Positions 1,948 through 12,599 of a stretch of 64,000 nucleotides of DNA are shown here, piece after piece. The notes under the pieces were generated by a model. The model was not told the origin of the DNA. It made no database searches and saw nothing but the letters and a program-made list of their open reading frames with translations. Location of the stretch: positions 310,001-374,000 of the forward strand of contig NZ_FMTP01000001.1 of NCBI RefSeq assembly GCF_900100155.1. The letters are read 5' to 3'. The stretch is from Ancylobacter rudongensis. Lineage in GTDB: Bacteria > Pseudomonadota > Alphaproteobacteria > Rhizobiales > Xanthobacteraceae. How positions within the stretch are numbered: the first letter of the stretch is position 1; every line of letters begins with the position of its first letter. Made by a program: the position numbers and the translations under genes.

Positions 1948-2361
1948 ATGCGTGGCGCCAAGCCCCAACATATCGTTCCGGCTTCCTCGCCGGTGCGCGG
2001 CCCGCTGGATCCGCCGGACTGGCTGTCCGAGGATGCCCGCGCGGAGTGGGAGCGCGTGGCGCCGATCCTGATCGAGGAACGCCGAACCCTCACCATGACC
2101 GACGTCGCCACCCTGGCGAATTATTGCGTCGCGGTCGGCCGGGCGGCGGAAGCTGAGCGGGTGATCTCCAGCGAGGGCATGATCTACCACAGCAAGACCG
2201 GGCCGAAGAAACACCCGGCCGTGGCGATCTCCTCCGATGCCCAGACGCAGGCGCGCCTGCTCGCCGGCGAGCTCGGTCTTACCCCTGTCAGCCGATCTCG
2301 GCCGGCCGCCCGTGGCGCGGCAGATGACGGACAGGATGACCTCTTTGGAATGGGTGATTGA
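1948..2361 (+). CDS. Phage terminase small subunit, P27 family
   Basis: The product has 137 residues. It shows the P27-type layout: a short basic N-terminus, then PPDWLSEDARAEWERVAPIL, a helical YCVAVGRAAEAERVI stretch, a YHSKTGPKKHPAV segment, and a second helix ending in LGLTPVSRSR. TerS recognises the packaging site and recruits the large subunit. The chosen ATG has GGAGAGG eight bases upstream; an in-frame ATG 18 bases earlier is possible but overlaps the HNH gene and has a poorer site. The large subunit starts three bases after the stop, so both are probably translated together. If the element is a satellite, this subunit would decide which DNA is packaged. Confidence 0.85.
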   Translation: MRGAKPQHIVPASSPVRGPLDPPDWLSEDARAEWERVAPILIEERRTLTMTDVATLANYCVAVGRAAEAERVISSEGMIYHSKTGPKKHPAVAISSDAQTQARLLAGELGLTPVSRSRPAARGAADDGQDDLFGMGD

Positions 2362-2363
2362 CC

Positions 2364-3965
2364 ATGGCACGCTCGACCTATCCCGAATGGATCTTCGACG
2401 GCAGCGAGATTGCCGACCCCATGGGGCGAGGCGAGCGCGCGGTGCGCTGGCTCCGGATGCTGAAGCACCCCAAGAGCAGCTTGCCCGGCCGGCCGTTCCA
2501 GCTCGATCCCTGGCAGGAACGGATCGTGCGCCGCATCTATGGCCCTCGCCATGAAGACGGCACGCGCATCGTCAAGACCGTGGTGCTGCTGCTCCCGAGA
2601 GGAAACCGGAAAACCGCGCTCGCCGCCGCTCTCGCCCTGCTGCACACGATCGGGCCGGAGCGGGTACCGGGCGGCGAGGTGATCTCGGCGGCTGCTGACC
2701 GCAAGCAGGCGAGGCTCGCCTTTGCGGAGGCGCTCGGTATCGTCCGCACCGTGCCGGCGGCGGCTTCAAACACCCGCGTCGTCGACTATCGCAACCGCCT
2801 GACCTTCCCGCGTGACGGATCGTTCTATGAGGCGATCTCGGCAGATGCCGGCACCCAGCACGGGCGCACGCCGGCCTTTGTGCTCGCCGACGAGCTGCAC
2901 GCCTGGCCCAAGCGCGAGCTATGGGACGTGCTGCGCTCCGGCTTGGTGAAGCAGAAGGGTTCTCTTCTCGTCGTCGCCACCACGGCCGGCCGGGGGCAGG
3001 AAAACGTTGCGTGGGACATTGTGGATGATGCCCGCCGCGTCGCGCGGGGCGAGGTCGACGATCCCTCGATCCTGCCGATCCTGTTCGAGGCGGACCGCGA
3101 TTGCGATTGGACGGACGAAGCCGTGTGGCACCGTGTGAACCCCGGCCTCGCCTATGGCTATCCCGACCTTGAAGGCCTTCGCCAACTCGCCCGCGAGGGA
3201 CAGCGCCGGATCGGCGACCGCGAGGCCTTCCGCCAGCTCAACCTCAATATCTGGCTCGATCACTCCGCCGATCCGTTCGTCGACATGGACGTCTATGACG
3301 AGGGCGCGGGTTCGGTCTTCCTCGAGGCCCTCGAGCTGGCGCCTTGCTGGCTTGGCGTCGATCTCTCCAGCAATCACGACCTCACGGCTGTCATCGCCGC
3401 GTGGCGCGACGAGGCCGGCGGCTACATCGTCCACCCGTGGTTCTTCTGTCCCGAGGAGAACCTGCGCGCCCGTGCCGAACGTGACGGCGTGCCTTACCCA
3501 ACCTGGGCGGAGCAGGGCTTCATCATCCCGACACCCGGCAACGTGGTCGACTTCCGCACTGTCGAAGACACGATCCGCGATCTTTGCTCGCGCTACGCCG
3601 TGCAGGAGATCGCCTTCGATCCGCACCTCGCCCGCAACACCCTCAACAACCTGCTCGAGGATGGCCTGCCGGCCGTCGAGATGCGGCAGGGCTGGGTGAC
3701 GATGGCCCCGGCGGTGAAGGAGCTGGAGCGCGCCATTGTCGGGCGCCAGCTCACCCATGGCGGGCACCCCGTCCTGCGCTGGTGCTTCGACAACATCGCC
3801 GTCCACACCGACAGCGCCGGCAACCGCATGTTCCACAAGGGCAAGAGCCGGGACCGGATCGACGGCGCCGTCGCCTGCGCCATGGCAGTCGCCCGCGCGA
3901 GCGCCGAGGGCGGGGCGAGCATCTACGAGAGCGACGAGTGGTCGCCGGAGATGATGGTTCTTTGA
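2364..3965 (+). CDS. Phage terminase large subunit
   Basis: The 533-residue product has both terminase domains. The ATPase part has a Walker-A-like PRGNRKT (about 78-84), Walker B FVLADE (172-177) and coupling motif VVATTAG (203-209). The nuclease part has acidic positions in GVDLSSNHD (331-339), AFDP and DRIDGAVA, as expected for an RNase-H-like fold. Length is normal for HK97/P27-linked large subunits, so it looks intact. It drives DNA into procapsids through the portal. A TTG two codons earlier is a possible but less likely start. It is the last morphogenesis gene on this side; kinase and helicase cargo follows rather than portal or tail genes. Confidence 0.92.
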   Translation: MARSTYPEWIFDGSEIADPMGRGERAVRWLRMLKHPKSSLPGRPFQLDPWQERIVRRIYGPRHEDGTRIVKTVVLLLPRGNRKTALAAALALLHTIGPERVPGGEVISAAADRKQARLAFAEALGIVRTVPAAASNTRVVDYRNRLTFPRDGSFYEAISADAGTQHGRTPAFVLADELHAWPKRELWDVLRSGLVKQKGSLLVVATTAGRGQENVAWDIVDDARRVARGEVDDPSILPILFEADRDCDWTDEAVWHRVNPGLAYGYPDLEGLRQLAREGQRRIGDREAFRQLNLNIWLDHSADPFVDMDVYDEGAGSVFLEALELAPCWLGVDLSSNHDLTAVIAAWRDEAGGYIVHPWFFCPEENLRARAERDGVPYPTWAEQGFIIPTPGNVVDFRTVEDTIRDLCSRYAVQEIAFDPHLARNTLNNLLEDGLPAVEMRQGWVTMAPAVKELERAIVGRQLTHGGHPVLRWCFDNIAVHTDSAGNRMFHKGKSRDRIDGAVACAMAVARASAEGGASIYESDEWSPEMMVL

Positions 3966-4150: not shown

Positions 4151-5485
4151 ATGAGTGACGTAGCGGGGGACAACGCAAAGGAACAAGCAGGTCGCCTTTG
4201 CGAAGAAAAAGGTTGGTCTCTCGGTGAATTGCTTGGTCAAGGCGGCAGCGCTGCGGTTTTCAAGGTAGATATGGCGGAGGGTGAAGCCGCTCTCAAAGTG
4301 TTTTTCCCCCGTTTCATTCAAGGCGGGCAGGGTGTGGTCACGCGTAAGCGCCTAGAAATTGTGAAGGAGCGGCTGACCCACCACTCTTGTCCTACTCTCG
4401 TCAAAATTTATGCCGTTGACGAGTTTGAGGGCGCTCCATTTATGTTGATGGAACAAGTAGCCGGATCCATGTTAACCGATGTTCTTCGTTTGGTGCCAGC
4501 GCCATCTGTCGCGGAGATAGTCCGACAGGTCGCTGAGGCTGCAAAATATCTAGAAGATATTGGCTTAACTCACCGTGATATAAAATCAGACAATATTATC
4601 ATAGATAAGCAATTTACGAAGGCTACTCTAGTTGACGTCGGTGTAGCGAGGATAATCGATGACCCTGTCGGATCAGGCACTGATGACGACGGTAAGTTGC
4701 CGTTCGTAGCTACAGCTAGATATAGCTCGCCGGAGTACATGTTTCGACTTATACCGGCTGGTCCAGAGCTATGGAGAGCATTAAATTTCTATCAGCTTGG
4801 AGGACTCATCCACGACCTGATTTCTGGAGAGCCGCTTTTCGAAGATGTTGTCCGTCAGGCCACAAACAACCGTTATCTTATAGCATATGCGGTGGCGACT
4901 AGTATGCCTCATGTCGGTGCGCGGGTGGGTGTTCCAGACTACATTGTTAATTTGGCGCAGCGGTGTCTCCAAAAAGATCCGACGCAGCGGTTGGCCAGTG
5001 TTAGTTGGGAAGATTTCTTAGGTCGGGACCGCCAGCGAGAAAACGAGGCATTTCTAGGCATCTGCGGAGATAAGAGTTACAGTGTCGCTGTTCGAAAATT
5101 AGACGTGGCGGAGCTCGGTCGCGCGATTGAGTCGAGTATAGACAATAAATTGATCGGAAAGATGCTGAGTTGTAGGCATTCATGTACCGTGATGCACAGC
5201 TCGCATGCACATATAAAGATATGGTGGAGTCCGCCAGCAGCACCTTGCGGCAGTGAAATCGAGGTCTTAATTGATTTGAGCGAAGTTGATGGAGGTATTC
5301 GGATCGAGGTAAGTTCTAAAATTGAACGTTTAGAAAAATGTTTGTCCGTTCCGGCCGTAATCATCGCGTCTGACTCACCTGATATTGCAATTGGCGCTGC
5401 TAATCAGTCTTACGATCTATTCTTGGAATCATCCGCGAAAATAATTCGTCCTACGGGCAACAGCACAACGGGAGATGGAAATTGA
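4151..5485 (+). CDS. Ser/Thr protein kinase, first gene of cargo cassette
   Basis: The 444-residue cytoplasmic protein has a complete eukaryotic-type kinase domain: glycine loop LGQGGSAAVFKV (28-39), lysine 49 in AALKV, catalytic HRDIKSDN (141-148), magnesium-binding Asp 162 in DVG (in place of DFG), and SPE (193-195). About 150 C-terminal residues form an extra, beta-prone domain I do not recognise. There is no membrane segment and no PASTA repeat, unlike housekeeping PknB kinases. The gene is AT-rich: 4561-4620 has 18 G/C of 60, against 33 of 60 in the terminase at 3241-3300, which points to recent transfer. It shares four bases (TTGA) with the helicase gene. Kinases carried by mobile elements often act in phage defence (Stk2 for example), but the target here is unknown. 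Confidence 0.88.
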   Translation: MSDVAGDNAKEQAGRLCEEKGWSLGELLGQGGSAAVFKVDMAEGEAALKVFFPRFIQGGQGVVTRKRLEIVKERLTHHSCPTLVKIYAVDEFEGAPFMLMEQVAGSMLTDVLRLVPAPSVAEIVRQVAEAAKYLEDIGLTHRDIKSDNIIIDKQFTKATLVDVGVARIIDDPVGSGTDDDGKLPFVATARYSSPEYMFRLIPAGPELWRALNFYQLGGLIHDLISGEPLFEDVVRQATNNRYLIAYAVATSMPHVGARVGVPDYIVNLAQRCLQKDPTQRLASVSWEDFLGRDRQRENEAFLGICGDKSYSVAVRKLDVAELGRAIESSIDNKLIGKMLSCRHSCTVMHSSHAHIKIWWSPPAAPCGSEIEVLIDLSEVDGGIRIEVSSKIERLEKCLSVPAVIIASDSPDIAIGAANQSYDLFLESSAKIIRPTGNSTTGDGN

Positions 5486-6618
5486 GTCTCCTATGGCGTC
5501 GTAGGCGTGATCTTCATCAAGACCAAATTAATGCGATTGAAGGCCTGCCCTCATCCGGAAAATATTTACTCCTGGGCCCTCCAGGCTCAGGAAAGACGAG
5601 CATACTCCTTCATCGTGGGCAGTTTCTCCGGCTGCCGCCCCACCAGCTCGCCAACGTAATTTTGGTGACTTTCTCGCGAACTCTGCGTGAATTCATCTCA
5701 TTAAGTGGCGATGATCGCTTCCCATCAGAACTAATACATACACAAAGATCGCTCGTTGACATGCTTTTCCAATCGTATGGCGAGCATCCACCGACCGTTG
5801 ATGGAGATCTCTTGGAGCAAAATCGCGCGCGAGCTGAAGCCGCAAACGAATTGCTTGCATTGAGAGGTCGAAAAATAATGTACGACGCAGTGCTGATCGA
5901 CGAAATTCAAGATTTATGCGAAGCGGAGCTGAAGCTACTAACCTCCATCTCAGACCGGGTTATGCTCGTTGGAGATATTCGACAGCAGGTTTACCGCTCA
6001 TCTGATGTCATGGCTGCAGCAGCTGGACTTTGCGATAGAACAATTGAACTAAGGCATCATTTTAGGATCAGCCAGGATATTTGTTTAGTGGCTGATCGGA
6101 TAATTAGAAATAGTGATTTCTCATTGGCTGAATATGCGCACTATGTTGGACCGACGCCGACGAGACCTAGTGTAATTGGACCCCTGTCTCCAGAGGCGCA
6201 AGTTTCCGCTGTGGCCGAAGCGTTAGATTTGCAGCTCGACACCTACAATGATCCGTCCGATCTGCTGGGTGTGGTCGTTGGACGGACAGAAGAATGTGAC
6301 GACATTCTTGAGAGATTTCGGGCTATACCGAAGCTCCGAAACCGCTGTGGCGTATTCCATTCCGGCGTCGTCAATCGCCAGTTCGGCCAAGATTGCAGAA
6401 TCTGCATAACTACAGTTCAGTCCTGTAAGGGACTGGAATTTCGAGCGCTTCACTGGCCGTTCGCGGACGCGACCCCATATCTCACACGCCAGAAAGCGTA
6501 TACGGTCGTGACGCGCGCGAAGAGTTCACTGACACTCTATAGGCACGGCGCTTTGCCAGCAATTTTATCTGGGGCCATTCCACCAACCCCTCAGAGGCTC
6601 TTCGAGGACGATGACTGA
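5482..6618 (+). CDS. Short superfamily 1 (UvrD-like) helicase/ATPase of cargo cassette
   Basis: The 378-residue protein has the SF1 motifs in order: Walker A GPPGSGKT (32-39), motif Ia VTFSRTLREF, Walker B AVLIDEIQDL (136-145), motif III MLVGDIRQQVYR (161-172), motif IV-like LRHHFRIS, motif V TVQSCKGLEF (311-320) and motif VI YTVVTRAKS (340-348). It is about half the length of UvrD or Rep, so the 1B/2B insertions are minimal, closer in size to Gabija GajB. The start is a TTG overlapping the kinase stop, with GGGAG seven bases before it; no in-frame ATG precedes the Walker A. The rare start and overlap suggest coupled, reduced synthesis relative to the kinase. Its stop overlaps the next gene by eight bases. 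Confidence 0.85.
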   Translation: MSLLWRRRRDLHQDQINAIEGLPSSGKYLLLGPPGSGKTSILLHRGQFLRLPPHQLANVILVTFSRTLREFISLSGDDRFPSELIHTQRSLVDMLFQSYGEHPPTVDGDLLEQNRARAEAANELLALRGRKIMYDAVLIDEIQDLCEAELKLLTSISDRVMLVGDIRQQVYRSSDVMAAAAGLCDRTIELRHHFRISQDICLVADRIIRNSDFSLAEYAHYVGPTPTRPSVIGPLSPEAQVSAVAEALDLQLDTYNDPSDLLGVVVGRTEECDDILERFRAIPKLRNRCGVFHSGVVNRQFGQDCRICITTVQSCKGLEFRALHWPFADATPYLTRQKAYTVVTRAKSSLTLYRHGALPAILSGAIPPTPQRLFEDDD

Positions 6619-8002
6619 ACTGAATTTCGCGCTGGTTGAACGAGACACTTTAGCGGACGCGCTCCGTGGAGACCGGTCGGCCGTAGGTAGCGCGTGGCAT
6701 TCGCTCCAGATGCTGCCGCGGCTTGGTAATCGGCAGATGGTAGTAATCTGGTTGGACCAGTCCATTCAGCCGAGTGCGATCGTTATAGAAGACAGCGCCA
6801 GAGAGGAGCTCTTCTCTTGGCTTGCGACTTTTCACGGCGACCTGACGCCCATATCCAGCTGGTGTCAGGTTCTGTCGCCCGATGAGATTGTACGCCCGTC
6901 ACCCGAAGGAGGGCTCGTTCCCAACCTTTTTGGCTTTGAGGCCGCCTGGGCCAGCGCAACGTTGGCTGAAGCTATGAGCCTGTCTGGTCGCTCATACGAC
7001 AGCCTATCTTTGAATGTTCTGCTAGCGACCGAAACGTTCGCAATAGGCCGCGCCGCGGGTCTCTACGGCGCTAGGTCGGTTTCTATCGTGGGTGAAAGGC
7101 TAGACCGAGTACGTCGCCAACTGCGGCCAACTTCTGAAGGCCGAGATCCTGCGGGTGGCCTTGTCCGCGAGGTGCTTCTGGGATTAATGCCCGATGCACC
7201 TAGAGTGACCTCTGCCAACGCGCGGATGCTGCGCGATATCTGCGGGCGGTTTTTGGGAGATCGGCTTCCAGAGGAAGGCAGGTTCCTGACGTCCGATGAT
7301 CTGGGTGAGTTGCTCTCTATGGTGCCGGTGCTCCACCCGCTTACCGACCTAGAGGCGATGTCCGCTGAGGAAAGGGTTCGGTTTTTGCGGTACCTTCGAA
7401 GCCGCATTCCGCCGCTGACGACACCCGAGTGGCCATTGTTCGCATTTGGCGCGGGATACGTCATTAGTAGGATCGGAAGTGCCGAGCGTGATCTCCGTCT
7501 GGCCGACGCCTTTGATGCTGGTAGGTCGTCCGTTCTGTCTTGGGCAATGGTCGCGGGTAGTCTCGGGGCTAGGACCTTCTGGACAGATGCTTTCGGCGGG
7601 CTCGGTCGATTCGTTGCTCGTGAGCTCATTCGCCCCCATTATCTCTTAGACCCGCCCACATGTGACATTAGCTATGACGAGGTGCGACTTTTCGATGAGA
7701 AAAGTTCGCGCATGAGGCTTCGTTCGGCGAACCGCAACGCTCTCGCGGTGTCTATGCTGCCCGGCGTCACAATGCATTTCGGAGTGGGAGATCTTGACCG
7801 GTCAATGTCCCGCTCGCCCGATATAGCTCAGGACGCGCACCAGGGTTTGTCGGGTGTACCCTATGTGCCTGACGAGCAACTTGAAGCCCTAGCGGCGCGG
7901 CTCGCACCTCATCTGAGACACCTCTTTGAGGTCAACCAGAAGACTACGTCAAAAAACCGAAAGGCTGGCAGCTCACTTCGATTGCCGTTTCAAGACAAGT
8001 GA
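6611..8002 (+). CDS. Third cargo protein of unknown function
   Basis: The product has 463 residues and I do not recognise a family. The first ~60 residues look alpha/beta (a VVIWLDQS strand), the middle is mostly helical, and residues about 280-340 hold an aromatic, hydrophobic stretch (LFAFGAGYVISRIG, then VLSWAMVAGSLGARTFW). The C-terminus is basic and probably disordered (NQKTTSKNRKAGS). No signal peptide or clear nuclease, TIR or protease motif is visible. Its ATG lies eight bases inside the helicase gene, so it is made from the same message and probably works with kinase and helicase. Composition is closer to the host than in the kinase gene, suggesting the trio was assembled from parts or has partly ameliorated. 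Best guess is an effector or sensor subunit. Confidence 0.7.
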   Translation: MTELNFALVERDTLADALRGDRSAVGSAWHSLQMLPRLGNRQMVVIWLDQSIQPSAIVIEDSAREELFSWLATFHGDLTPISSWCQVLSPDEIVRPSPEGGLVPNLFGFEAAWASATLAEAMSLSGRSYDSLSLNVLLATETFAIGRAAGLYGARSVSIVGERLDRVRRQLRPTSEGRDPAGGLVREVLLGLMPDAPRVTSANARMLRDICGRFLGDRLPEEGRFLTSDDLGELLSMVPVLHPLTDLEAMSAEERVRFLRYLRSRIPPLTTPEWPLFAFGAGYVISRIGSAERDLRLADAFDAGRSSVLSWAMVAGSLGARTFWTDAFGGLGRFVARELIRPHYLLDPPTCDISYDEVRLFDEKSSRMRLRSANRNALAVSMLPGVTMHFGVGDLDRSMSRSPDIAQDAHQGLSGVPYVPDEQLEALAARLAPHLRHLFEVNQKTTSKNRKAGSSLRLPFQDK

Positions 8003-8158: not shown

Positions 8159-9058
8159 TCATGTGAATTCGGAGCGAATCGATATGCGTAGTCCGGACGT
8201 CAACTTATCTTGATCGTCTTGCCGGAATTCTTCAGCCATATCACTTACCGCATCGACGGCTTTTACGAGACCCATGTTGCCCAACGCCCAGATGGCCAAG
8301 CCTCGTCGATTCCCATCTTCTTTGGCTGCGCGGCGTACGAGTTGAATAGCGTCGCCCGGTTCGATGTCCCGCCCGAGTAGGGCACAAAGGTAGAGGTAGC
8401 TCGCCGGATGCGTGGATCTCAGGTGGTCCCATTCGGCGGCTTCCAATCGGCCAAGTCTTGTCGCCGCACGGCTGACGATCCAGCCTTGGTCGGTCCCACG
8501 CACTAATTCAGGCATGATCTCGGCCAGCAGCTCCGTTCCCGCCTTGTAGGCAAGCGCCTTCGCCGCGCGCCAATCCCTGTTTTCTCGCCAGTATGACAAG
8601 ATGGCGCGAGCGTCGAACATCATCTCGTCATCCGACATAGCTTTGAGCCACCGCGCCGCCGCGGATGCGGTGCCTATGTCGATCCAGCGGTCGAGCGCCG
8701 CACGCCGATCATCGGGGAGGAATGTGGCATAGAGAGCCGAGAGCAGCGTATCCAAGCTCGTTCGCGATAACCGATCTAGCGGTTTAAGCGCTAGCAGCCG
8801 AGACGCAAGAAATGCCAGTTGGTCCGGCGCGGCAGTGGTTCGCGCTAGGCGTACAAGACGGTTACGCAGCGCGCCGCGAAGTACGGCTGGCCCGGCTAGA
8901 AACGTGGCTGAGGCTTCAACAAGATCATTGAAACGCAGGCAAGCAACGTAAGCATGGAGAACGGCCCTGGAGACGTCCTCTGGGCCTTCCTGCCGATTGG
9001 ACGCGGCCAAAAGTCGAGCATTCATCTCATCCGTCGAGTACCCGACAGCAGCGGCCAT
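8159..9058 (-). CDS. Helical protein of unknown function, paired with HTH regulator
   Basis: The 299-residue product is almost entirely predicted helix with repeated Leu/Ala/Arg spacing, for example LVRLARTTAAPDQLAFLASRLL-type segments. This suggests an alpha-alpha (HEAT- or TPR-like) repeat scaffold, which usually binds proteins or nucleic acids. No catalytic motif, signal peptide or membrane helix is seen. Its ATG follows the stop of the HTH regulator with no spacer, so the two are cotranscribed and presumably matched in function. It points leftward, towards the third cargo gene. I cannot assign a function; an accessory defence component or a satellite control protein are both possible. Confidence 0.6.
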   Translation of the reverse strand: MAAAVGYSTDEMNARLLAASNRQEGPEDVSRAVLHAYVACLRFNDLVEASATFLAGPAVLRGALRNRLVRLARTTAAPDQLAFLASRLLALKPLDRLSRTSLDTLLSALYATFLPDDRRAALDRWIDIGTASAAARWLKAMSDDEMMFDARAILSYWRENRDWRAAKALAYKAGTELLAEIMPELVRGTDQGWIVSRAATRLGRLEAAEWDHLRSTHPASYLYLCALLGRDIEPGDAIQLVRRAAKEDGNRRGLAIWALGNMGLVKAVDAVSDMAEEFRQDDQDKLTSGLRISIRSEFT

Positions 9059-9361
9059 TCAGCCCTCATCCTTCATTCGGGACGTTGAGTTCGGCGACCA
9101 CGGTTCCGTCGTCGAAGGACGCGTCTTTCTCAACCGCACCCCGGGCCCTTCGCCATTCTCGGCTACGAAGATGACGCCGGCCTCCTCCAAAACGCGCCTC
9201 ACCGCAGCTGCGTTCGGTGCGGTCATTGAGGTCGTTCCGTCTTCGGCCTCGGCCCGACGAACGGTGGCTACGCCAACACCCGAGGCCTTCGCCACATCTT
9301 CGGCGCGCCAGCGAATAAGTGCCCTAGCGGCACGTATCTGTGCACCCGTGATCGCGGACAT
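9059..9361 (-). CDS. XRE-type HTH transcriptional regulator
   Basis: The 100-residue product begins with a helix-turn-helix (ITGAQIRAARALIRWRAEDV, then AKASGVGVATVRRAE), the compact XRE variant common in alphaproteobacterial mobile elements. After residue 70 a short tail (VIFVAENGEGPGVRLRK) follows. It is transcribed leftward and directly abuts the helical protein gene. The gap to the divergent rightward gene holds a 31-base palindrome, so the protein probably represses its own promoter and the rightward operon. In element biology it could be the switch that keeps the integrase-side genes silent, but that is inference. Confidence 0.85.
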   Translation of the reverse strand: MSAITGAQIRAARALIRWRAEDVAKASGVGVATVRRAEAEDGTTSMTAPNAAAVRRVLEEAGVIFVAENGEGPGVRLRKTRPSTTEPWSPNSTSRMKDEG

Positions 9362-9447: not shown

Positions 9448-9717
9448 ATGGGCACCCATGTTCGCGAACGAGAGAGCCTTGTCCCTGAATATGTGTGGAT
9501 CGAGCGCCGGCGGCTTCGCCAACGCGCCGAGCGCACGATCGAGGAGCTTATTGAACTGCTCGACGAACTCGACGGGGAATCGGACCTAGAGGACAACGGC
9601 GACGACGGTCCGATCGACGATGACGAGGGCGAGGAGGATCCGGCCGAAATCGGGATCGGCGATCTTGACGGCTTGCTCGAGCAATACCCCGGCGGCTGGA
9701 ATGGGGGCGCGATATGA
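9448..9717 (+). CDS. Small strongly acidic protein
   Basis: The product has 89 residues. An N-terminal third rich in Arg (IERRRLRQRAER) forms a likely helix, followed by a highly acidic stretch: I count 28 Asp/Glu in the whole protein, nearly all after residue 30. AGGAG lies before the ATG, and the stop shares four bases (ATGA) with the next gene. No family is recognised. Strong acidity in an early gene of a mobile element recalls DNA-mimic anti-restriction or anti-defence proteins, but acidic tails are also common in unrelated phage proteins. It is the first gene rightward of the palindromic operator. Confidence 0.6.
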   Translation: MGTHVRERESLVPEYVWIERRRLRQRAERTIEELIELLDELDGESDLEDNGDDGPIDDDEGEEDPAEIGIGDLDGLLEQYPGGWNGGAI

Positions 9718-10136
9718 TCGAACGTCGCTCGATTCTCCTCGCTGCCGCCAAGGCGCTGGTGTTTGGCCCGGCCGCTGCTGCGACGGTGCCCGTGGCTATT
9801 GAGGCAACCAGCGCTCTCGGCAGCTCAAAACACACCCCGCCGGACGCTGTCGACGCTTTAGTGTCCGCGTTCATGCGCTGCGCGGAAACCAACGGCGTTA
9901 CGATTCGGCTGGATTATGGGCGGGCGAGGTTGGGGCGAGTCGGCGTCGGTTTGATCGAGCCGGACGATGATCCTCGTGGCACCAAGTTCGAGCGCGTATG
10001 CGCTGCCTGGTCGATGTTGCGATCTGTTCCGGGAGGGCGTGAGGGCTTAATCGCGGCGTGCGAAGCCAAAATTAGCGGTGACCCAATTCGTCAGAAGGGT
10101 GCCGTGCTTGAGGGGCATAGTCTGTGGATGGTGTAA
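9714..10136 (+). CDS. Hypothetical protein with Tat-like N-terminus
   Basis: The 140-residue product begins with an ERRS pair of arginines, then a run of small and hydrophobic residues (ILLAAAKALVFGPAAAATVPVA), which looks like a twin-arginine or Sec signal or a membrane anchor. The rest (residues 50-140) is soluble with VTIRLDYGRARLGRVGVG in the middle. It overlaps the acidic gene by four bases, so both are probably translated together. I do not recognise a family. Export from the cell would be unusual for an early element gene, so the N-terminus may instead be a plain hydrophobic helix. Confidence 0.55.
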   Translation: MIERRSILLAAAKALVFGPAAAATVPVAIEATSALGSSKHTPPDAVDALVSAFMRCAETNGVTIRLDYGRARLGRVGVGLIEPDDDPRGTKFERVCAAWSMLRSVPGGREGLIAACEAKISGDPIRQKGAVLEGHSLWMV

Positions 10137-10214
10137 AATCGCTCTATGTGCGTTTTTTGCACAATGTTGCCCGGTGGCGGTTTCTGTGATTTAGTCGCAA
10201 TCACGGAGGACGAC

Positions 10215-10928
10215 ATGGCAAAGCTGCCGGCCTTGGTTGACGCTCTCGCAAAACACGATCCGCGCGGTCTCTCAACCGTGAAGAACTATGCCCGCATCGT
10301 CCGCGAAGCTGGGCTACTTCCCACGACTAAACGCGGGAACGGGGCTTCCGATATGGGCGAGGGTGAGGTTGCCAAGCTGCTCCTCGGCTTGGCGGAAGTC
10401 GCGAATGTACGCAAGGCGCCGCGCGCTATCGAAGTGCTGTCTGGCGCTCTTGTCGTTGCCCCGATGTCCGGCGCTGTCGATCCTGCCAATCATCTGGAGG
10501 GCTTCGACCTGGCTGATCGAATGGAGAGTCTCGGCGAATTTCTACAGTGCCTGGTCGGGGGCGTCAGGGATCACGGAATTGTCCTTCCATCCAAGGATGG
10601 TAGCCGCAATCATGTCCTATCCGGCATGCGGCTGAAGGCGCCTGACGATTGGGGTGGGGACGCTTACATCACTTTCAATCGGACCTTAGCCGGGGAGTTC
10701 ACCCTGCATTTTCACGGACCGACGCCAGAAGCCTACGAGTTCTTTCGAACCAGGCCCGCTGCCGACCTTGGAGAGCGCTGCCGGGAGCGTGCCGATGGGG
10801 CGCCGGTGCCGGGCATTTCGTTTGAAGTCGAGATCGGCGTCAGCGCAATCGCAAGCCTCGCGGGCTGTCTGGCCACCAAACGGCGCATTGCTCCTCGGCG
10901 CCCCAAGCTGCTCGAGGAAAAGCAATGA
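10215..10928 (+). CDS. Element protein of unknown function
   Basis: The 237-residue product starts at an ATG five bases after GGAGG; an in-frame ATG 69 bases upstream has no such site and would add a cysteine-rich leader. The N-terminal 50 residues are helical (LPALVDALAKHDPRGLSTV), and a beta-rich part follows around residues 130-215, with YITFNRTLAGEFTLHFHGP and ISFEVEIG. There are no membrane helices. The end overlaps the next small HTH gene by four bases. Its place next to excision and integration genes suggests a role in element control or replication, but no motif supports a specific function. Confidence 0.55.
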   Translation: MAKLPALVDALAKHDPRGLSTVKNYARIVREAGLLPTTKRGNGASDMGEGEVAKLLLGLAEVANVRKAPRAIEVLSGALVVAPMSGAVDPANHLEGFDLADRMESLGEFLQCLVGGVRDHGIVLPSKDGSRNHVLSGMRLKAPDDWGGDAYITFNRTLAGEFTLHFHGPTPEAYEFFRTRPAADLGERCRERADGAPVPGISFEVEIGVSAIASLAGCLATKRRIAPRRPKLLEEKQ

Positions 10929-11133: not shown

Positions 11134-11376
11134 ATGACAACGCGCTCACTCAGGGAACAGACCTTGCCCCGCTTCGCGCTTCGGCGCGAGGAAGCGGCGG
11201 CGAGCCTGAGTGTGTCGGCTTCCACCTTCGACAAGTGGGTGGGCGACGGGCGCATGCCGAAGGGCCGCAAGGTCGACGGCCTGATGCTGTGGGATACCGA
11301 GCAGGTTCGCGAGCACTGGCTTGCGCTGCGGGACGGGGTGATGACGCACAATCCGCTCGACGAAATGGTGCTGTGA
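11134..11376 (+). CDS. MerR/excisionase-like HTH protein
   Basis: The 80-residue product has ALRREEAAASLSVSASTFDK (helix-turn-helix), then WVGDGRMPKGRKVDG and LWDTEQVREHWLALRDG, the pattern of helix-turn-helix domain excisionases that bind the attachment arms. GGGTAGGGGG precedes the ATG; an in-frame ATG 18 bases upstream is weaker. Its TGA overlaps the integrase ATG (TGATG), so integrase translation depends on it. This pairing just upstream of a tyrosine integrase is typical for Xis. It is intact in length for the family. Confidence 0.75.
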   Translation: MTTRSLREQTLPRFALRREEAAASLSVSASTFDKWVGDGRMPKGRKVDGLMLWDTEQVREHWLALRDGVMTHNPLDEMVL

Positions 11377-12581
11377 TGGCGCCGGTGAAGCTCCGCTACT
11401 TGGTGCAGGACATCGACAAGCGGAGCAATGTGCGCTGGTACGTACGCGTGCCCGGCCGCAAGAAGGTGCGGCTTCGGGCGAAGCTGAACGAAGACGGCAC
11501 CCTGTCGGATGCATTCATGGCGGCTTACTCCCGTGCCGTTCGCGGCGTCGAGGAGGAGCAGGGCCGCCCCAAGCTGCAGCGGGTGGCCGAGGGCAGCTTT
11601 CGGCACGCCCTTACCCGGTATTATGCCTCGCCGCTGTTCAAGGGGCATGAGGCGGCGACGCAGCGCGACAAGCGCAGCGTGCTCGACCGCTATGCCGTGA
11701 AAGCCGGCCCGCTGCCGCTGGCTGCATTCCGGCGCGAGGACATTGAAAAGAGCCGAGACAAGCGCAGCGAACGCCCGGGCGCGGCGGACAAGCTGGTGAA
11801 GTATCTTAAGGCCTTCTTCGCCTGGTGCGAGCGCGAAAGGTTGATTGCGGCGAACCCGGCGACGGGTGTGAAGAAGATAAACACATCGTCCGAGGGCTTC
11901 CATGCCTGGACGCCTGACGAGGTGCGCCAGTTCGAAAAGGCGCATCCGATCGGCTCTCAGGCCCGCCTGGCACTGGCGCTGCTCCTGCACACGGGCGGCC
12001 GGCGCGGCGATATCTACGCGCTCGGCCCGCAGCACATCGTCGGCGGCTATTTCTCGTTCGTGCAGGAGAAGAACCGCCGTCGCCGCGCGGTGCGGATCGA
12101 TATCCCGGTGCGGGCGGAGCTTCAAGCGGTCATCGCGGCAACGCCGACAGGCGACCGGTCCTTCATCGTCTCGGCGCACGGCCGGCCCTACACCAAGGAG
12201 AGCTTCGGCAACCGCTTTCGCGACTGGTGCAATGAGGCCGGCCTGCCGCATTGCTCGGCACACGGCGTGCGGAAAGCGGCAGCGACGATTCTCGCCGAGA
12301 GCGGCGCGACGGCTTCCGAGCTGTGCGCCGTGTTCGGCTGGTCGAAGCTCGAAACCGCCGAAATCTATGTGCGGAAGGCACAACGCAAGCTGATGGCGAG
12401 CAACGCTTTCGCCCGGCTGGACGCGCAGACGGCCCGAAAGAGTGTCCCACTTTCGGCTGCCAAAATCATTGATGGGACAAAGCGGACGAAAAGCAATGAA
12501 AAATCAAAGCCAGTCGGCGGATTTGGTGGGCCCGGTAGGACTCGAACCTACAACCAGACCGTTATGAGCGGTCGGCTCTAA
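11376..12581 (+). CDS. int: Tyrosine recombinase/integrase of the island
   Basis: The 401-residue product has the catalytic set of tyrosine recombinases: Arg 209 in HTGGRRGD, Lys 232, His 296 and Arg 299 in HGVRK, Trp 322 in place of the second His, and nucleophile Tyr 331 in AEIYVRK. A SAM-like core-binding domain covers about residues 70-165. It catalyses insertion and excision at the neighbouring tRNA. The ATG overlaps the upstream excisionase-like gene. The last 19 or so codons (GGPGRTRTYNQ and beyond) are read from the complement of the tRNA gene, and the stop codon lies inside it. The integrase end is therefore part of the attachment region and would change on excision. Confidence 0.9.
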   Translation: MAPVKLRYLVQDIDKRSNVRWYVRVPGRKKVRLRAKLNEDGTLSDAFMAAYSRAVRGVEEEQGRPKLQRVAEGSFRHALTRYYASPLFKGHEAATQRDKRSVLDRYAVKAGPLPLAAFRREDIEKSRDKRSERPGAADKLVKYLKAFFAWCERERLIAANPATGVKKINTSSEGFHAWTPDEVRQFEKAHPIGSQARLALALLLHTGGRRGDIYALGPQHIVGGYFSFVQEKNRRRRAVRIDIPVRAELQAVIAATPTGDRSFIVSAHGRPYTKESFGNRFRDWCNEAGLPHCSAHGVRKAAATILAESGATASELCAVFGWSKLETAEIYVRKAQRKLMASNAFARLDAQTARKSVPLSAAKIIDGTKRTKSNEKSKPVGGFGGPGRTRTYNQTVMSGRL

Positions 12582-12599
12582 CCATTGAGCTACAGGCCC
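12524..12599 (-). tRNA. tRNA with CAU anticodon, probably tRNA-Ile2
   Basis: The minus strand reads a full cloverleaf of 76 bases with encoded CCA. The 7-bp acceptor is GGGCCTG/CGGGCCC with one T-G pair, the D stem is GCTC/GAGC, the anticodon stem is GACCG/CGGTC around loop CTCATAA, and the T stem is GTAGG/CCTAC with TTCGAGT loop. Anticodon CAT fits elongator Met or the lysidine-modified Ile2; the overall body looks to me like alphaproteobacterial Ile2. The 3' half is shared with the integrase reading frame on the other strand, marking it as the integration target. Confidence 0.93.

Follow-up and report, generated by a model that had tools for sequence, protein, structure and literature searches.

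K-H-U, a candidate mobile three-gene anti-phage system carried by a phage-satellite-like element of Ancylobacter rudongensis

A stretch of 64,000 nucleotides from Ancylobacter rudongensis (contig NZ_FMTP01000001.1, positions 310,001 to 374,000; hereafter the window, in whose coordinates positions are given) contains three overlapping genes that encode a Ser/Thr kinase (K), a minimal helicase of superfamily 1 (SF1; H) and a protein of unnamed sequence family (U). We consider it very probable that K-H-U is an undescribed three-gene system, most likely anti-phage. More specifically, with a probability of roughly 0.6, the trio defends against phages as a mobile system that travels here as cargo of a satellite-like element, with H and U as the core and the third component as an exchangeable input. 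The defence role is one that we infer from context, namely from finding the operon repeatedly on mobile elements and next to genes of known defence systems. The genes and the domain on which the argument turns are as follows.

4151..5485, + strand: K, Ser/Thr protein kinase of 444 residues; Pkinase match over residues 24-282 (PF00069, 2.6e-24), the C-terminal ~160 residues without family assignment
5482..6618, + strand: H, minimal SF1 (UvrD-like) helicase of 378 residues with a TTG start; Pfam matches AAA_19 (3e-10), UvrD-helicase (8.8e-9) and UvrD_C_2 (1.4e-6)
6611..8002, + strand: U, 463-residue protein of unnamed sequence family, without significant library match
6926..7636, + strand: residues 106-342 of U, domain with predicted ADP-ribosylhydrolase (ARH/DraG) fold from which the canonical metal motifs are absent

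The operon sits between the terminase gene (2358-3965) and a divergent pair of helix-turn-helix (HTH) and HEAT-like genes (9361-8159), inside the satellite-like element, with K and H overlapping by 4 bases and H and U by 8. In K, the Asp of the HRD motif is Asp143, and the DVG variant is D162-V-G; Lys49, Asp143, Asp162 and Thr188 are invariant in all 11 complete trios compared below. The SF1 motif residues of H (Walker A Lys38, Asp140, Glu141, Gln143, Asp144 and Arg345) are likewise invariant in 11/11. Because these catalytic and motif residues are kept throughout, both K and H look like active enzymes. By profile comparison, the best solved structures for H are HelD, PcrA, UvrD and the GajB chains. 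GC content rises along the operon (K 0.489, H 0.507, U 0.579), compared with 0.676 both in the terminase gene and in window positions 13001-64000. Pfam, PADLOC and PHROGs yield nothing for U at E<=1, and its single NCBIfam match lies far under the cut-off (E 0.19, 11.8 bits vs 161), so that none of the four libraries names the family. The first-pass annotation, which was made from the letters of the window, had described three overlapping open reading frames (ORFs) at these positions with these overlaps and a TTG start, a complete kinase with a DVG variant, a minimal UvrD-like helicase with SF1 motifs, a third protein without recognisable family, AT-rich K and H genes, and a satellite-like island between a terminase and a regulator pair; all of this has held, the island being a 16.7-kb tRNA-Met element with head and packaging genes.

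The same annotation had set recurrence of the trio as a unit elsewhere as a test beforehand, and 11 complete K-H-U operons were found: the window, L002, L008, L018, L019, L021, L022, L041, L042, L056 and L066. They come from alphaproteobacterial genomes, from alpha- and betaproteobacterial plasmids and from viral contigs, and are partly non-independent, as the window and L002 are close relatives (identity 73% for K, 82% for H and 78% for U), and so are L018, L019 and L042; L018, L019, L041 and L042 belong to one genus. The plasmid loci are L021 (Cupriavidus pMTS3) and L022 (Rhizobium leguminosarum), with a further H match on a third plasmid record, from a second Rhizobium leguminosarum; L055, L056 and L066 are viral-contig loci. 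The comparison of 11 trios leaves out L020 (U cut by the contig end), L055 (K and H, then the contig end) and L007 (without kinase). Across the trios, the lowest identities to the window's proteins are 25% for K, 28% for H and 15% for U.

The family is rare. Against 5.8 billion proteins (7,997 best candidates scored), U retrieved 20 proteins at E<=0.01, the window's own included, and one further protein came from a repeat search based on a broader alignment; H retrieved 649 at E<=1e-10. Six of the 20 U proteins lie on contigs equal in size to those of H proteins among the matches listed, which are the best 120 of the 649 (1088756, 3442, 4595, 6897347, 4347 and 8367, the first being the window's own). 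In sampled genomes, U occurs in 3/385 of the class, in 5/397 of the order (one of which, G674, is the L002 contig), in 2/398 of the phylum, both already found in other draws, and in 3/195 of one genus; U searched against the genome contigs gave one locus. Searched in the 385 class genomes at E<=1e-20, H was found in precisely the three that have U, and the idea that H is a passenger unrelated to U was rejected on this ground.

Linkage within the loci is tight. In the nine loci found via U (window, L002, L007, L008, L018, L019, L020, L041, L042), H adjoins in 9/9 and K in 8/9, while in the five found via H (L021, L022, L055, L056, L066) U follows in four, the fifth (L055) stopping at the contig end. 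Wherever K was read in loci found through U or H, H follows it (13/13). There is no internal stop in any frame of the 11 complete operons, and spacing ranges from -50 to +15 bases between K and H and from -52 to -4 between H and U (starts taken from the longest ORF in every case but K of L002). The pairwise distances of the three proteins agree closely across the 11 operons (Mantel r 0.971 for K/H, 0.945 for K/U and 0.948 for H/U; each at p 0.0001, the lowest value that 9,999 permutations allow), and therefore K, H and U have been inherited jointly for a long time. Weaker helicase relatives in nine viral-contig loci (L057-L065) come without K or U at E<=1e-3; the linkage thus seems peculiar to the H clade rather than common to SF1 helicases at large. 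A search of viral contigs with window-based patterns for H or U led no further.

The settings of the trio would fit a mobile defence system. Its carriers are plasmids, the prophage-like contig L066 and the 16.7-kb satellite-like element, and a trio private to the window's satellite was accordingly rejected. With PADLOC, known-defence neighbours were counted in four (L002, L021, L022, L056) of the 10 trio loci checked (window, L002, L008, L018, L019, L021, L022, L041, L056, L066), with one to four hand-picked neighbours each; beyond these 10 loci, the scan took in X and Y of L007, and L042, L020 and L055 were not included. In L002, an LmuB-like protein (5e-28) is encoded directly upstream of the trio, preceded by a nuclease gene for which HamA1 scores best (8.2e-58), ahead of LmuA (1.8e-10), and which also matches Pfam Cap4_nuclease (2.3e-16); we call this upstream pair Lamassu-like, going by these profile matches. 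In L022, HamA and HamB (Hachiman) are near the trio, with an IS481 transposase gene between the two, and L056 has RT_UG17 (4.1e-134) and SLATT (2.4e-38) of a DRT system. The neighbour in L021 is RmrT (3.2e-39), a part of RosmerTA. Weaker matches to MkoA in L041 (5.3e-12) and to mad8 in L021 (8.9e-4) were not counted, and the window's own two neighbours give weak regulator matches at most. In L066, one flank of the trio is a gene for phage virion morphogenesis and the other an endolysin-like gene. Two further observations concern these loci: the position of the trio in this prophage-like contig (L066 3497-9907) is perhaps a cargo hotspot, and upstream of the Bradyrhizobium-type trio at L019 2692-4500 is a gene for a 602-residue protein with no Pfam or PADLOC match at E<=0.001.

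The predicted fold of U is invisible without tools and lay beyond the first-pass annotation. Models of two U proteins that are 17% identical both align best with ARH/DraG folds, well ahead of other chains, and both have the all-helical ARH fold; the N-terminal part and the C-terminal tail of U lie outside the matched domain. U is thus like ARH1, ARH3 and DraG (PF03747) in the predicted fold of residues 106-342, and differs from them in having no sequence similarity (no PF03747 match for the window's U at E<=1 in Pfam), no canonical motifs and other operon partners. The characterised ARH domain bears a TH motif in addition to its binuclear metal site (PMC9503650). The corresponding motifs [ST]DD[ST], GD.D[ST] and TH occur in 1, 0 and 3 of 30 U sequences, respectively, vs 5/5 ARH controls each, and U as a canonical ARH was rejected. 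Other positions are strictly kept: P80, E253, R255, W311, R337, D352, E357 and P384 are invariant in 30/30 sequences, and position 120, in the first helix of the domain, stays acidic (Glu in 27, Asp in 3). Since the metal motifs are lost while other residues are invariant, U would, provided that the predicted fold is correct, be a derived protein of the ARH fold and may be binding-only or have other chemistry. No significant library match places U by sequence in a known family of phage structural or housekeeping proteins, and that reading was also rejected. A Foldseek search of the second model against the PDB and viral models gave nothing significant, a Pithovirus ADP-ribosylglycohydrolase standing at rank 23 of the viral list with a probability of 0.10.

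One variant locus bears on how the three proteins may be arranged. In L007, no kinase was detected within 17 kb; instead, a gene that we call X (269 residues) precedes an H of 643 residues that begins with some 272 residues (Y) unmatched in Pfam, and this H meets U directly. At E<=1e-5, five of the 72,556 plasmid records searched carry a relative of X. In L067 (Rhizobium sp. 11515TR), X is followed by a 384-residue protein of which residues 2-230 match Y, and neither H nor U was found there at E<=1e-3. The X genes of L068 and L069 likewise overlap the gene after them, where Y was not detected at E<=0.1. The gene after X therefore begins with the Y domain in two of the four loci, and in one of them Y is fused ahead of H. 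The positions of X and the next gene in each locus are as follows.

L007, 5130-6755: X and the gene for the Y-H fusion
L067, 8007-9913: X and the gene for the 384-residue Y-type protein
L068, 5944-7645: X and the overlapping gene
L069, 5938-9431: X and the overlapping gene

The three copies of X that were compared with Pfam (L007, L068, L069) match no family, PADLOC has no match for X or Y, and a search of viral contigs with X led no further. As H and U are kept in L007 without K, with X-Y in its place, H-U appears to behave as a core whose input, K or X-Y, can be exchanged, judging from this one locus, which also offers a genetic handle to part input from output.

The first-pass annotation had named no system with this trio, and the comparison with established systems agrees, as K-H-U lacks a feature of each of Gabija, Mokosh and MADS for which we looked. 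Gabija consists of the OLD nuclease GajA and the UvrD-like helicase GajB. It resembles K-H-U in that a UvrD-like SF1 helicase gene stands beside a partner of another kind. The matches of H to GajB models are partial only (best 1.1e-10 in PADLOC; the GajB chains at 4.4e-13 by profile). U, which is ARH-like by model, has no PADLOC or Pfam match at E<=1, and thus none to an OLD/TOPRIM nuclease partner of the GajA kind, a kinase is added, and H has 378 residues vs 493-499 in the GajB chains. Mokosh has a kinase-helicase protein, MkoA, together with MkoB or MkoC. K-H-U likewise combines a kinase and a helicase in one system, and K matches MkoA at 43 bits, whereas K and H are encoded by separate genes instead of the MkoA fusion; in PADLOC, no Mko model appears for H among its best 25 of 36 matches and none for U. 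For the MAD6 kinase of MADS, K reaches 53.6 bits vs the NCBIfam cut-off of 460. Stk2 and PD-T4-6 are single-gene kinase systems that share with K-H-U the use of a Ser/Thr kinase in defence, and differ in that K is followed by H in all 13 loci where it was read, each of them reached by way of U or H. The closest functional analogy for H and U is Hachiman, with the HamA nuclease and the HamB sensor helicase, in which, according to PMC12278908, a sensor helicase restrains an effector partner. Both pair a helicase with a formerly unassigned partner, although U has no HamA match, H best fits UvrD-type models and K-H-U adds a kinase. Bacterial ARG-centred immune systems directed against viral ADP-ribosylation have been predicted (PMC9503650); their fold class is common to U, and their operon is not. 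By title and abstract opening, the literature searched, which excludes most subscription papers, holds no report of the K-H-U trio.

How such a system might work can be sketched. H, a minimal ATP-driven SF1 motor, would engage phage nucleic acid or replication intermediates and, by analogy with the helicase-partner defence pairs, could restrain or deliver U. K, as the exchangeable input, would be activated in infection and phosphorylate H and/or U. The released or modified U might then act through E253, R255, R337, D352 and E357, either as an effector or as a nucleotide- or ADP-ribose-dependent switch, and phage replication would be stopped, probably at the cell's cost. It is possible, though less likely than not, that this amounts to a new class of immunity built on a re-purposed ARH fold, in which U, having no ARH metal site and a new invariant E/R/R/D/E set, is a guard or effector that reads an ADP-ribose- or nucleotide-linked mark of infection and is coupled to a helicase core with an interchangeable input (kinase or X-Y). 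If it is true that the ARH-like domain is an effector or sensor, nucleic-acid surveillance, phosphorylation and ADP-ribose chemistry would be joined in one operon. K-H-U is, in any case, a recurrent, compact and directly testable addition to the candidate immune systems.

Other divisions of labour within the trio deserve consideration. U could instead be the sensor, its ARH-like pocket binding an ADP-ribose-containing signal, such as host proteins that a phage enzyme has ADP-ribosylated, and thereupon freeing K and H as effectors. The ARH fold of both models and the loss of catalytic motifs together with another invariant set, as expected of a binding-only derivative, would agree with this, as would the predicted ARG-centred systems against viral ADP-ribosylation (PMC9503650). 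But the partners in those systems are phosphatases, transcription factors, chaperones and variable nuclease or helicase genes, with no kinase-helicase pair named, and in L007 the missing gene is K and not U; we regard it as unlikely. Alternatively, K may be the killer, an abortive kinase of the Stk2 or PD-T4-6 kind, with H-U as trigger or antidote. The best PADLOC match of K is indeed a PD-T4-6 model (3.3e-30), and Stk2 phosphorylates multiple cellular targets on infection, as PMC12926258 describes. The PD-T4-6-type models, however, cover the kinase domain of K only, and the L007 variant has no detected kinase, which leaves this arrangement a small chance.

Two readings would take the operon out of portable defence altogether. 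Its place directly after the terminase in a satellite-like element could mean that K-H-U serves the satellite itself, in helper interference, replication or packaging; yet the trio is also found on plasmids and in other settings, four times beside known defence genes, and we consider such a service very improbable. Very improbable too, in our view, is a role in DNA repair or stress that has nothing to do with phages: profile comparison does place H nearest to HelD, PcrA and UvrD among solved structures, but the patchy spread of U in the sampled genomes, the AT-rich composition here, the mobile carriers and the defence neighbours argue against it.

The first-pass annotation had proposed a candidate phage-defence trio, which the neighbours in 4/10 loci and the satellite-like carrier support as far as context goes. 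Against the reading of K-H-U as a mobile defence system with an H-U core, several observations weigh. A counted PADLOC neighbour is present in just 4 of the 10 trio loci, the window is not among them, and the neighbours were chosen by hand. Because U or H led to every locus, a K of this type without H would be missed, and H searched against 50,697 phage records gave nothing at E<=1e-10. On the side of U, Foldseek ranks ARH3 first for the first model at E 0.13, which is not significant alone, and lists no ARH among 50 rows for the second; hhalign of U against a five-sequence ARH profile gives a probability of 0.2%, that is, no sequence link. The mechanistic steps are what we infer, and they leave the sensor and effector roles undivided among the proteins. 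Of the two findings that would have made the first-pass annotation give up its proposal, U belonging by sequence to a known structural or housekeeping family and the absence of the joint trio from other genomes, neither arose.

The carrier of the operon in the window is an element of 16.7 kb between att copies, integrated at tRNA-Met and reaching from window coordinate -4171 to 12539 (contig C7 305829-322539). Its landmarks around the trio are as follows.

Window coordinate -4171, 4.2 kb left of the window (contig C7 305829-305844): attL copy
2358..3965, + strand: terminase large subunit of the carrier element (Pfam TerL; phrog_9, 1.4e-139)
8159..9361, - strand: divergent pair of a 299-residue protein with weak HEAT similarity (8159-9058) and a small HTH protein (9059-9361), Pfam/NCBIfam matches below curated cut-offs
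11376..12581, + strand (likely start 11376): tyrosine integrase of the carrier (PF00589, 5.9e-17; phrog_1, 1.9e-41)
12524..12539: attR, 16 bp identical to the 3' end of tRNA-Met (tRNA 12524-12599, - strand)

One more 16-bp repeat turned up, GC-rich and outside the tRNA. In two loci of the same genus, L044 and L045, both flanks and the tRNA-Met are present within the ~4.3 kb fetched and the element is absent, while the remaining 9 of 11 loci show no right-flank match in the stretch fetched. Capsid-forming phage-inducible chromosomal islands (cfPICI) are defined by an integrase, head and packaging genes of their own, small size and the lack of tail genes. The gene content of the element is of this kind, as portal, protease, capsid, head-tail adaptor, TerS, TerL and integrase genes are all present, the element is small and no tail families occur among its proteins scanned (some small ORFs lay outside the scan). 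PMC11389934 describes cfPICI as satellites that make their own capsids. Going by its genes, we therefore call the carrier a phage-satellite-like element, with mobilisation by a helper being putative. Three ORFs of the element at window 9448-10928 (89, 140 and 260 residues) have no Pfam match, the 140-residue one also having no PHROG match. The divergent HEAT-like/HTH pair that adjoins the trio may be a regulator or separate cargo.

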